From contig NZ_LYXE01000063.1 in assembly GCF_002532075.1 (NCBI RefSeq), positions 62,001-126,000 on the forward strand: a stretch of 64,000 nt of DNA, in the 5' to 3' direction. Below the pieces are notes generated by a model that made no database searches, was not told the DNA's origin, and was given only the letters and a program-made list of their open reading frames with translations. The translations under genes and the position numbers were made by a program. This DNA is from Candidatus Chloroploca asiatica (lineage in GTDB: Bacteria > Chloroflexota > Chloroflexia > Chloroflexales > Chloroflexaceae). Positions 7,608 through 10,574 of the stretch are shown one piece after another. Position 1 is the stretch's first letter; each line of letters begins with the position of its first letter.

Positions 7608-7670
7608 CCTGGGAGCGAGGGCGTCTCGCCCTCGGAATGCCTTCGAGGGCGAGACGCCCTCGCTCCCAGG
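7608..7670. terminator. 27-bp hairpin between convergent genes
   Basis: Perfect arms 7608-7634 and 7644-7670 with a 9-base loop; each arm also contains a shorter internal palindrome (GAGGGCG/CGCCCTC). It lies between the TauE-type gene and the convergent pilin-like operon. GC-rich, with no T-run. Confidence 0.6.
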
Positions 7671-7730: not shown

Positions 7731-8471
7731 TTATGGCAAAGCCTCGACCCCCAGATCATCAAAACAGGCCTTGGAATTCGCCCAAGTGCGAAAACCCATG
7801 CCGCCACTCATATAGGGATTTTGATCCGTGACTCGTAAGATCTCCTCGCCATCAATAGAAACAGCAAAAGTATCCCCAACCACTTCAAGCTCAATCTGGC
7901 GGTCTGCACCACGCCAGAGATAGTCTGGTGGTGCTTGGACTCGTTTAATTGGTGAAGCTTCAGTGCCATTCGTCCATTTGCGAATAATGAATTCCCCCTT
8001 CGCATACCCCGGATCGTACTGAAACGAGTAACCATTAAGTTGCCCGACAAATCTAGCACTACCTGAAGTACCTGGCACGTCAAAATTGCTTGCACGGAAA
8101 AAGACCCCGTAGCCATCCCCCGAAACGAGCATACTCTGATCAACTTTGATGCGGTAATTGTCGGCTTCGACTGGACGATAGATCGACCCGGCACCAGGGC
8201 CTCCGCAGAGTTTGCCACCTTCTACGTTCCAGTTGCCATATTTTGTCGGCCACGCATTGAGATTATCAAAGGAATCACGAAAGAGCAGATTGCTGAGCTC
8301 TTCGCACTGCTCATCGGCACCCAGACCATTGGCAATCTGGCACATAACGGTGCGAAGGTTCACGCCGATCATGCTCAACCCGAGGATCGCGGTGAGTGAA
8401 ACCAGGGCAAGCAGAGCTCCAATTTCCACGAGCGATTGCCCTGAACGGCGATGGAGAGGCTGCTGATGCAT
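7731..8471 (-). CDS. Flp-pilin-like protein with beta-sandwich (LamG/ConA-like) ectodomain, paralogue 1
   Basis: 246 residues from the ATG at 8471 (GGAG 7 bases upstream); the longer in-frame start at 8543 lacks support. Residues 7-52 resemble a Flp/Tad pilin: basic R-R-S, then G11 followed by Q-S-L-V-E16, a ~22-residue hydrophobic helix, and a T-V-M-C-Q-I-A-N-G-L segment as in Flp tails. G11/E16 fits the prepilin-peptidase rule G|xxxxE. From about residue 65 a ~180-residue domain follows with F-R-D-S-F-D-N-L-x-A-W, V-F-F-R-A, and V-x-I-D-G near the end, the layout of concanavalin-like/3-keto-disaccharide-hydrolase-like sandwiches. C44 and C56 are conserved in the paralogues, as are C-terminal C-F-D/N residues. 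It would be membrane-held or assembled into a pilus; function is inferred. Confidence 0.75.
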   Translation of the reverse strand: MHQQPLHRRSGQSLVEIGALLALVSLTAILGLSMIGVNLRTVMCQIANGLGADEQCEELSNLLFRDSFDNLNAWPTKYGNWNVEGGKLCGGPGAGSIYRPVEADNYRIKVDQSMLVSGDGYGVFFRASNFDVPGTSGSARFVGQLNGYSFQYDPGYAKGEFIIRKWTNGTEASPIKRVQAPPDYLWRGADRQIELEVVGDTFAVSIDGEEILRVTDQNPYMSGGMGFRTWANSKACFDDLGVEALP

Positions 8472-8629
8472 AGGAATGCTCCAATTAGTAGTTCGTAACA
8501 AAAGTTTTCTGCTCTCGGTATTGGCTTCGACAAGCTCAGCCAACGGCGGACAATGGGCGTTGCGAACGGACGGAGGCTGAGCCTATCGAAGCTCCCGCTT
8601 GGTATCAAAAAACTTACGTTACAGACTAC

Positions 8630-9385
8630 TCAATCGAGCGGCTGGATCAAAACATTGTTAAAGCAGGTCTGGGTGGAACCTGTCGGGGTAGGCGAATGAA
8701 AGCCGATGCCCCCTGTCGCATATGTTGCGTCCTTCACTTGCATAACCTCTGTGCCATCAATCATGACACGAAAGGTATCGCCGCTGACAGTAAGCTCAAC
8801 GTTGTTGCTAGCACCGTAACCTTTCGGGATCGGCACCGTTCTCAGATCAGGCGTAACCATATTGCCGCCCGTCCATTTCACGATCGCAAGCGATGCTGGT
8901 GTAGTAGTCTGGCCAATTGTCTTAGATGGAGTGTAACGCAGCGAATAACCATTGAGCGAACCGACGCCGTTTGACTTACCTGAGCCGGTATCTGTAGCGC
9001 GAAAAAAGACATTGTGACCACTACCAGCGCTTGCTCCGGCACCCTGACTCTTGGTGTCGATCGTTTGCTTAAAGGAGATCGTGTAATCGTTAGCCCCCAC
9101 TGACTGAAAGCGTTGATCACTTTTGGCGTCTCGGCCCTGGCAAAAATCCTCCATCTTGATGGGTCCACCCGACGCCGGTGGTGCGGCGGGTGGTTCGGCT
9201 GATGCAATGATCGGCGCACAGTTCGCACCGGCATCCAGGCCCGTGGCAATCCGGCACAAGACGGCATTGAGATTGACCCCCACCAGGTTCAAGCCCACCA
9301 GGGCGGTGATGGAGACAAGCGCCAGGAGGAGACTGATTTCGACGATTGACTGTCCTGCTCTTTTGTCCTGAGTTGTTGTATGCAT
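8630..9385 (-). CDS. Flp-pilin-like protein with beta-sandwich ectodomain, paralogue 2
   Basis: 251 residues from the ATG at 9385, preceded by AAGGGAGA; upstream in-frame ATGs run into the neighbouring gene and are rejected. G11-Q-S-I-V-E16, the hydrophobic helix and C44/C56 fall at exactly the same positions as in the two paralogues. After the helix comes an Ala/Pro-rich linker (about 60-80), longer than in the others. The sandwich domain follows with V-F-F-R-A-T-D, L-N-G-Y-S-L-R-Y, V-M-I-D-G-T-E-V and a terminal C-F-N-N. It is the most divergent paralogue, mainly in the N-terminal part of the sandwich. It lies 22 bases after the carboxypeptidase-regulatory-like gene in the same operon. 158 bases without recognisable genes separate it from paralogue 1. 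Confidence 0.75.
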   Translation of the reverse strand: MHTTTQDKRAGQSIVEISLLLALVSITALVGLNLVGVNLNAVLCRIATGLDAGANCAPIIASAEPPAAPPASGGPIKMEDFCQGRDAKSDQRFQSVGANDYTISFKQTIDTKSQGAGASAGSGHNVFFRATDTGSGKSNGVGSLNGYSLRYTPSKTIGQTTTPASLAIVKWTGGNMVTPDLRTVPIPKGYGASNNVELTVSGDTFRVMIDGTEVMQVKDATYATGGIGFHSPTPTGSTQTCFNNVLIQPLD

Positions 9386-9407
9386 CGTTGGTCTCCCTTG
9401 ACCAAAG

Positions 9408-9866
9408 CTAACGCACAGGTTGAGTCGTTGTTTCGGACTTGACTGTCCCGACATTGATGGTCTGACCATTGCGGACATTGATCGGATACTCAACCGCAAC
9501 CCCGTCACGGGCGACGACAAGTACCTGGGCACCTGTCGGGACGCCAGCAATCTGGAAGCGACCATCGGGGGCTGTCTGCACAATCAGATCGGTCTTCTGA
9601 ATAATCACTTCGGCAGGTTGAGGGCGTCCGGCCTGATCAACCACCTGGCCGGCCACCGTGCCACTGCCTGTACCGGCAACCGACGGCACAACATCCATCA
9701 TCTGCACCAGACGGATGACAAGCAACAACCCGGTGGTGATGCTCAACACAATCAGTGCGATCCGCACGGGCTTTTGCCAGCGTGGCGGCGGCGGTGGTGG
9801 GGTGGATCCTGGCACAAGATCCTTGAATGAGTCCTGGAACGTCATAGCTTTGTCTCTTCTTTTCAT
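9408..9866 (-). CDS. Membrane-anchored protein with one carboxypeptidase-regulatory-like domain
   Basis: 152 residues from the ATG at 9866; an in-frame ATG at 9845 (145 residues) is an equal alternative with an AGAAGAGA site. A short cytoplasmic segment with six consecutive prolines (about 23-28) is followed by one membrane helix (about 33-55). An external ~80-residue beta domain contains G-T-V-A-G-Q-V-V-D-Q-A-G-R-P, G-R-F-Q-I-A-G-V-P-T-G and V-L-V-V-A-R-D-G, the signature of carboxypeptidase-regulatory-like domains. It starts 3 bases after the stop of paralogue 3 and precedes paralogue 2, so it should be co-expressed with the pilin-like proteins. It may be a periplasmic scaffold or partner for them (inferred from position only). 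Confidence 0.75.
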   Translation of the reverse strand: MKRRDKAMTFQDSFKDLVPGSTPPPPPPRWQKPVRIALIVLSITTGLLLVIRLVQMMDVVPSVAGTGSGTVAGQVVDQAGRPQPAEVIIQKTDLIVQTAPDGRFQIAGVPTGAQVLVVARDGVAVEYPINVRNGQTINVGTVKSETTTQPVR

Positions 9867-9869
9867 AGC

Positions 9870-10574
9870 CTATGGAAGTGCGCTAACACTCAGATTGTCG
9901 AAACAGGCTTCGCTACCATACCAGGTACGAAAGCCAACACCACCAGTCGTATATGGCGTTGCACTAGTATCACTTCCCGTTAGCACTTGAACTCCATCAA
10001 TATAGGCCGTAAAGGTATTGCCTTTCACCTCGAGTTCGATTTGGCGGTTCGTGTTATACCAATCATAATTCGCCGGCACATTAACACGAGCAAAAGGCCC
10101 AGCTTCACTTCCATCCGTCCACTTGCGCATCACAAATTGATTCAAACCTTTATCATACTGAAACGTATAGCCATTGACTTTCGTTTTCGTATCAAAATTA
10201 GTCGCCCGGAAAAAGACCCCATGGCCAGGCCCATTGACAAGCATCGACTGGTCAACGCGGATCCGATAATCATTGGGTTCAACAGGACGAAAGATCCGCC
10301 CACCATCCTTGATGCAGAGCTGCCCATCCTTGAGTTGCCAATTGCCATACTCTTTGTACCAGGCATCGAGGTTATCGAAGGAGTCATGAAAGAGCGGGCC
10401 GGCTTCGCAAACGTCGTCACCGCCCAGCGTCGAGGCAACTTGGCAAAAGACGGTCTCGATGTTCTTGCCAAGTATGCTGAGACCAAGGATTGCGGTCAGC
10501 GAGACCAGCGCAAGCAGTGCCCCGATTTCAACGAGCGATTGGCCTGATTGTGAAGATGAAAGTCGCATAGCCAT
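9870..10574 (-). CDS. Flp-pilin-like protein with beta-sandwich ectodomain, paralogue 3
   Basis: 234 residues and the first gene of the minus-strand cluster. The N-terminus has G11-Q-S-L-V-E16, a hydrophobic helix and T-V-F-C44-Q-V-A-S-T-L with C56 twelve residues later, matching paralogue 1 almost residue for residue. The ectodomain keeps F-H-D-S-F-D-N-L-D-A-W, R-I-F-R-P-V-E, V-F-F-R-A-T-N-F-D and the terminal A-C-F-D-N-L. Compared with paralogue 1 it lacks a short loop in the middle of the sandwich. Flp pilins are usually ~50-70 residues, so the ~180-residue domain is an unusual addition. No Tad secretion ATPase, prepilin peptidase or platform gene is in the window, so assembly would depend on genes elsewhere. 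Confidence 0.75.
   Translation of the reverse strand: MAMRLSSSQSGQSLVEIGALLALVSLTAILGLSILGKNIETVFCQVASTLGGDDVCEAGPLFHDSFDNLDAWYKEYGNWQLKDGQLCIKDGGRIFRPVEPNDYRIRVDQSMLVNGPGHGVFFRATNFDTKTKVNGYTFQYDKGLNQFVMRKWTDGSEAGPFARVNVPANYDWYNTNRQIELEVKGNTFTAYIDGVQVLTGSDTSATPYTTGGVGFRTWYGSEACFDNLSVSALP

Follow-up and report, generated by a model that had tools for sequence, protein, structure and literature searches.

Organization of the locus

The window, that is, the whole stretch of 64,000 nucleotides that was analysed, comes from contig C62 in the 5.84 Mb genome (hereafter G000) of a Candidatus Chloroploca, a filamentous phototrophic bacterium, and contains a set of four genes on the reverse strand, three of which (A, B and C) are paralogues, whereas the fourth encodes a membrane protein and lies between A and B, 3 bases behind A. 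The features are as follows:

9870..10574, minus strand: predicted Flp-lectin pilin A, 234 residues (ATG at 10574; open reading frame with a GGAG ribosome-binding site; PF06439, E 2.2e-10; Flp_Fap, E 0.017; structural model)
10407..10574, minus strand: leader of A, residues 1-11, with cleavage predicted behind G11, followed by the Flp-type helix module, which extends to C56 (Flp_Fap alignment; modelled helices)
9873..10403, minus strand: head of A, a CBM66/PF06439-type beta-sandwich, residues about 58-234 (pLDDT about 95; 4azz, Z 21.3, rmsd 2.1)
9408..9866, minus strand: membrane partner, 152 residues (PF13620, E 3.3e-8; structural model; 22 cassettes from 19 genomes have it directly 3' of the fusion)
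8630..9385, minus strand: predicted Flp-lectin pilin B, 251 residues (ATG at 9385; ribosome-binding site; comparison with the paralogues)
9218..9385, minus strand: leader and Flp-type module of B, residues 1-56 (paralogue comparison and profile alignment)
7731..8471, minus strand: predicted Flp-lectin pilin C, 246 residues (ATG at 8471; PF06439, E 1.2e-7; ribosome-binding site)
8304..8471, minus strand: leader and Flp-type module of C, residues 1-56 (paralogue comparison and profile alignment)

An earlier note on this DNA had proposed three paralogous frames starting at positions 10574, 9385 and 8471, and all of them are indeed present, each preceded by a GGAG-type ribosome-binding site. The other two proteins share 59% and 36% identity with A, and the three have a common layout with an 11-residue leader ending in Gly, the motif QS(L/I)VE, then a hydrophobic helix, and Cys as residues 44 and 56. 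The motif G11|QS(L/I)VE16 is also as it had been described, residues G11, Q12, S13, V15 and E16 being identical in A, B and C, whereas the identical numbering of C44 and C56 holds for the three proteins of the window but not for their relatives, where the spacing varies. None of these four proteins could be assigned to a meaningful family with NCBIfam. Behind gene C (window positions 7608-7670) there is a 27-base perfect inverted repeat, a 26-base arm of which has 27 copies in the genome when up to 2 mismatches are allowed, as compared with none for the reversed control; as judged from these copies, the repeat is a dispersed REP-like palindrome.

The pilin module

Flp/Fap pilins are normally about 50-70 residues long, with a G|xxxxE site and no folded head. 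The fusions resemble them in the length of the leader, in the G|xxxxE site and in the presence of the whole helix module, but differ in their folded head and total size (234-251 residues), and the copies of the window also lack Tyr6, having Glu-Ile at mature positions +5 and +6. Nearly all members of the fusion family have a leader of 10-11 residues, and that of the ordinary Flp of G000 (MLRSFFAKEEG|QGLVEY) has the same length as those of the fusions when counted from MLRSFF. Alignment of the full-length fusions revealed that the Gly of the cleavage site is kept in 30 out of 30 sequences, and the Glu at mature +5 in 29 out of 30. A Tyr at +6 is found in the homologues of G002, G090, G241, G394, G409, G379 and G051, and the canonical GQGxxEYAL is retained by the orthologous fusions of G002 and of other families; the sequences seen in homologues from other families are GQGLVEYALL, GQGIVEYALF or GQGVTEYALL, all of them examples of the canonical G|xxxxEY.

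In Pfam, where matches were listed up to E 10, the Flp_Fap model (PF04964) aligns residues 7-49 of A with profile positions 3-45 of 46, and residues 13-49 of C with nearly the whole model, at scores (15.4 and 12.1 bits, respectively) below the cut-off of 32.2 bits; the ordinary Flps of these genomes themselves reach no more than about 31-39 bits. No Flp_Fap match was listed for B up to E 10, and an N-terminal prepilin signature of the IPR012902 type was likewise not found in the window proteins at that limit. With the Flp model of Pfam itself, scores of up to 29.8 bits were obtained for three distant fusions arranged in tandem in G379. The profile-profile comparison of 16 fusion N-termini with 26 ordinary Flps of related genomes (HHalign) gave a probability of 98.6% over 50 columns, and the profile of the fusion family matched the solved Tad/Flp pilins 8u1k (E 6e-4) and 8u2b (E 0.005) at residues 14-51. 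In the structural model of A, the pilin part consists of helices 14-33 and 39-49, modelled with low confidence (pLDDT about 40-55). The Flp-type nature of the N-terminus, as proposed in the earlier note, is supported by the alignment of the two profiles, by the match to solved Tad pilins and by the homologues with the canonical motif, although the window proteins stay below the Pfam cut-off.

The N-terminus could also have been derived from a minor pilin of the TadE/TadF/TadG type that gained a head, a possibility that we regard as very improbable. The TadE proteins of the same genomes have N-termini of the form GQSxVE, and on the Flp profile built in this work their scores are as high as 20 bits, against 15-54 bits for the fusions, so that single sequences are incompletely separated, and it is the family, rather than the single window sequences, which is decisive; shuffled sequences keeping the G..E motif reached 20 bits in 0.8% of cases. 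Extra domains are described for TadG and CpaL (PMC12075869, PMC12607857). Against such an origin, the TadE family (PF07811) gave no match in the window proteins at E values up to 10, whereas Flp_Fap was listed for two of the three; moreover, the fusions retain Gly36 and the LG..V...F..I...L half of Flp, and their relatives carry the canonical EYAL. Altogether, A, B and C are very probably Flp-type prepilins joined to CBM66-type heads.

Other Flp fusions were also observed in these genomes. In G002 (contig C96, L086:7083-7805), a diverged Flp-lectin fusion, in which Gln replaces Glu at +5, lies upstream of a putative CRISPR array, with no adjoining partner, and the three tandem fusions of G379, a genome from a distant Chloroflexota family (L145:7612-10171), combine canonical EYA Flp modules with lectin-type heads, again with no membrane partner. 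A second kind of fusion occurs in Chloroploca (L081:6520-7029 in G000:C109, L084:6524-7051 and L095:6228-6731), where a canonical Flp module (45-46 bits on the profile built here) is followed by a different domain of ~110 residues with no Pfam match. Other Chloroflexales have Flp-like modules followed by long tails rich in Ser/Thr/Gly or in Gly (L010:1540-1932, L011:1312-1701).

The head domain

The model of the A head is confident from residue 61 onwards (pLDDT about 90-98), and structural comparison with Foldseek and VIA-align placed first the CBM66 of Bacillus subtilis levanase (4azz, Z 21.3, rmsd 2.1 over 157 residues), which was also recovered by sequence profile (E 3.5e-13) and shares 18% identity with the head. 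The head and the CBM66 of this levanase, SacC (4azz, 4b1m), are alike in both fold and sequence, although CBM66 modules have been described on secreted carbohydrate-active enzymes. The LamG/ConA-like head advanced by the earlier note proved to be a ConA-like beta-sandwich, as supported by the confident model and Foldseek, but its nearest relative is CBM66/PF06439 and not LamG. Matches to PF06439 were obtained for A (E 2e-10), C (E 1e-7) and B (E 0.014), the first two scoring above the cut-off of 26.8 bits (41.4 and 32.4 bits, respectively) and B below it (15.9 bits). In B, which has a Pro-rich linker, the usual first strands of the head are missing, and B may differ in function. Two conserved pairs of cysteines were found: C44/C56 lies in the linker and C87/C224 (numbering of A) in the head; both head positions are without Cys in G012, G006 and G263, and a few other homologues miss just one of them.

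The name of PF06439, 3-keto-disaccharide hydrolase, together with the scores of A and C above its cut-off and the presence of solved 3-keto-glycoside hydratases among the structural neighbours of the A head (9fbe, Z 16.9), would fit a head acting as an enzyme on 3-keto-sugars or glycosidic bonds, tethered to the pilus or to the membrane. We consider this very unlikely, as the nearest relative by both sequence and fold is a non-catalytic carbohydrate-binding module. The fold alone is no proof of carbohydrate binding. Moreover, the specificities of CBM66 modules vary, one binding fructan ends and another one modified xanthan (PMC11002231), so the ligand is not transferable, and we infer no more than that the head would bind a polysaccharide.

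The membrane partner

The 152-residue protein encoded between A and B has a basic Pro-rich N-terminus followed by one predicted transmembrane helix (residues 31-59) and a CarboxypepD_reg/transthyretin-like domain (about 68-143), a domain that would lie outside and presumably is of the Ig-like adhesin or chaperone type. Independent searches of 400 Chloroflexota genomes, one with each of the two profiles (fusion and partner), showed that the strong matches to the partner (E below 1e-25) coincided with the genomes bearing the fusion, and they were always located directly behind it on the same strand. This arrangement was found for 22 cassettes in 19 Chloroflexota genomes, mostly within 160 bases or overlapping, a count that takes in two genomes from the first search and a second cassette of G241 whose partner was placed by the partner-profile search. 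An orthologous cassette in single copy is present in relatives whose genomes are complete on one contig. The flanking genes vary between genera. Adjoining partners were not found for the G002 fusion near the CRISPR array nor for the distant fusions of G051 and G379. Altogether, the coupling of fusion and partner is the best evidence for a functional unit, and the co-encoded membrane protein of the earlier note is confirmed by its predicted helix and its CarboxypepD_reg-like domain.

Variation within the genus

The cassette differs between G000 and G001 more than its flanks, whose alignment is 97% identical. In codon columns about 31-75, gene A of G001 (L083:4063-4800) shares 81-86% identity with gene C of the same genome and 62-73% with gene A of G000, which suggests gene conversion between paralogues in the linker region. 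When G000 is compared with G001, the heads of B and C have diverged faster than the respective pilin parts (for C, the pilin part is 100% identical and the head 77%). A general diversification of the heads was not upheld, since it fails for gene A and for the comparison of C with G002, and is reversed in four pairs from genus g9.

Relationship with Tad pili

There are no tad genes in the window, as the earlier note had stated. The G000 genome does contain a tad cluster (L077, contig C199), identified by TadA and CpaB, with a TadA-type ATPase, CpaB, a TadZ-type protein and TadE; a prepilin peptidase (PF01478) and TadA-type ATPases (T2SSE/TadA matches) are encoded as well, the Tad genes lying away from the cassette on the chromosome. 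The same note had named the failure of Flp profiles to match and the lack of a prepilin peptidase in the genome as arguments against its proposal, and neither of them was fully found. In six genomes (G012, G024, G090, G241, G263 and G409), the fusion is immediately preceded by a gene that encodes a receiver domain and a ParA/MinD-like ATPase, as in TadZ/CpaE, and a profile of five of these proteins is co-linear with the TadZ of G000 (E 2.4e-50, 31% identity, 388 columns). This TadZ/CpaE-like neighbour ties the cassette to Tad pili. Hybrid histidine kinases are found near it in several relatives. Exclusive association of the receiver-ParA gene with Flp-lectin cassettes was rejected, as in contig C61 of G000 a paralogue is followed by a long ORF with which it forms a pair: this locus (L162:4931-9421), away from any Flp-lectin cassette, contains the TadZ-like receiver-ParA gene and an ORF of 1087 residues, and similar pairs occur in G006 and G012, also away from such cassettes.

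The location of the cassette outside any tad cluster in G000 counts against its products being Tad pilins. In this regard, they could instead be surface lectins that have a pilin-like helix, whether processed or unprocessed, as their membrane anchor, never enter a filament and form a membrane complex with the partner. The lack of adjoining tad genes in the window, the constancy of the membrane partner and the large heads, which could hinder packing along a thin filament, speak for such a role. On the other hand, the invariant G11, the near-invariant E16 and the conserved leader correspond to the needs of a prepilin peptidase and of docking in a filament, a TadZ-like gene adjoins the fusion in six genomes, and the ordinary flp of G000 likewise stands alone (L080:6377-6544, contig C89), far from the tad cluster on C199. 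Membrane-anchored lectins are thus a minority possibility, to be taken seriously but rather unlikely.

Proposed mechanism

The computation shows a fusion with a complete Flp module and a CBM66-like fold, a partner that is conserved, Tad genes in the genome and, in relatives, a TadZ-like neighbour. The combination put forward by the earlier note, a chimeric Flp-type pilin with a ConA-like head of carbohydrate-binding type and a co-encoded membrane partner, is thus supported by fold, profiles and partner conservation. We consider it reasonably probable that these proteins are modular prepilins belonging to the Tad pilus (Flp, type IVc) and present a glycan-binding head with the help of the membrane partner. 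The prepilin peptidase of the genome would cleave after G11, and the freed Flp helix, with its Glu at +5, would be taken up into the Tad pilus by the TadA/B/C encoded elsewhere, most probably as a minor pilin or a subunit of the tip, with positions at the tip (as for PilC and CpaL) or in the shaft both possible. The CBM66-type head would be held outside on a linker closed by a disulphide, where it could bind a polysaccharide of the mat, the sheath or a neighbouring cell. The single-pass partner is probably a dedicated helper, which would hold or dock the large-headed pilin in the membrane before assembly, whereas the private TadZ/CpaE-like ATPase of several relatives, often beside a hybrid histidine kinase, may set where and when these pilins are used. 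The resulting role would be in adhesion, aggregation or gliding. In Chloroflexales, long pili have been seen near septa, only Tad pilus genes were found in the three genomes examined in that work, and Tad pili have been proposed as the motility appendage (PMC7332563).

A more tentative proposal, which at present we consider doubtful, is that of a hitherto undescribed lectin-pilin subsystem of Chloroflexota, in which modular pilins on a Flp scaffold, a dedicated CarboxypepD_reg partner and, ancestrally, an own TadZ-like ATPase and sensor kinase would load glycan-binding subunits onto Tad pili to give filamentous phototrophs their grip in gliding and aggregation. The fusions are concrete candidates for adhesive subunits of Tad pili, whose role in gliding and mat formation in Chloroflexales is itself a proposal, and the partner is a new candidate Tad-pilus factor.

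Comparison with known systems

The literature searched contained no description of a Flp-lectin fusion or of such a membrane partner, nor anything linking DUF1080 with a pilin. The suggestion of an undescribed surface system in the earlier note needs qualification, since lectin-headed modular pilins as such are known in type IVa pili. Among Tad pili, minor pilins with extra domains customise the tips, as described for CpaL of Caulobacter (PMC12607857) and for the Kil tips, which are interchangeable paralogues, and TadG (PMC12075869). These are TadE/F/G- or KilLMN-type proteins with vWA or other domains of unknown kind, and not a complete Flp with a lectin-type head, and no CarboxypepD_reg partner is described in the parts of these reports consulted.

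A close parallel is found in Streptococcus sanguinis, where PilC and PilB are modular type IV pilins and PilC is lectin-headed (PMC9934059, PMC8179133). In PilC, a pilin module with a class III leader is grafted to a ConA-like lectin domain, and the protein is stabilised by a partner, PilA, which recalls the membrane partner of the window. It differs in its type IVa pilin module, in an extra Ig-like domain and in a partner that is itself a minor pilin. The survey of modular pilins covered IPR012902 only, and neither Flp nor Tad is mentioned in it (PMC9934059, PMC8179133). The fusions of the window join a pilin module to a grafted functional module just as modular pilins of the PilB/PilC kind do, and, if our reading is true, the principle of the modular pilin, for which type IVa pili are the main known case, reaches the very small Flp pilin.
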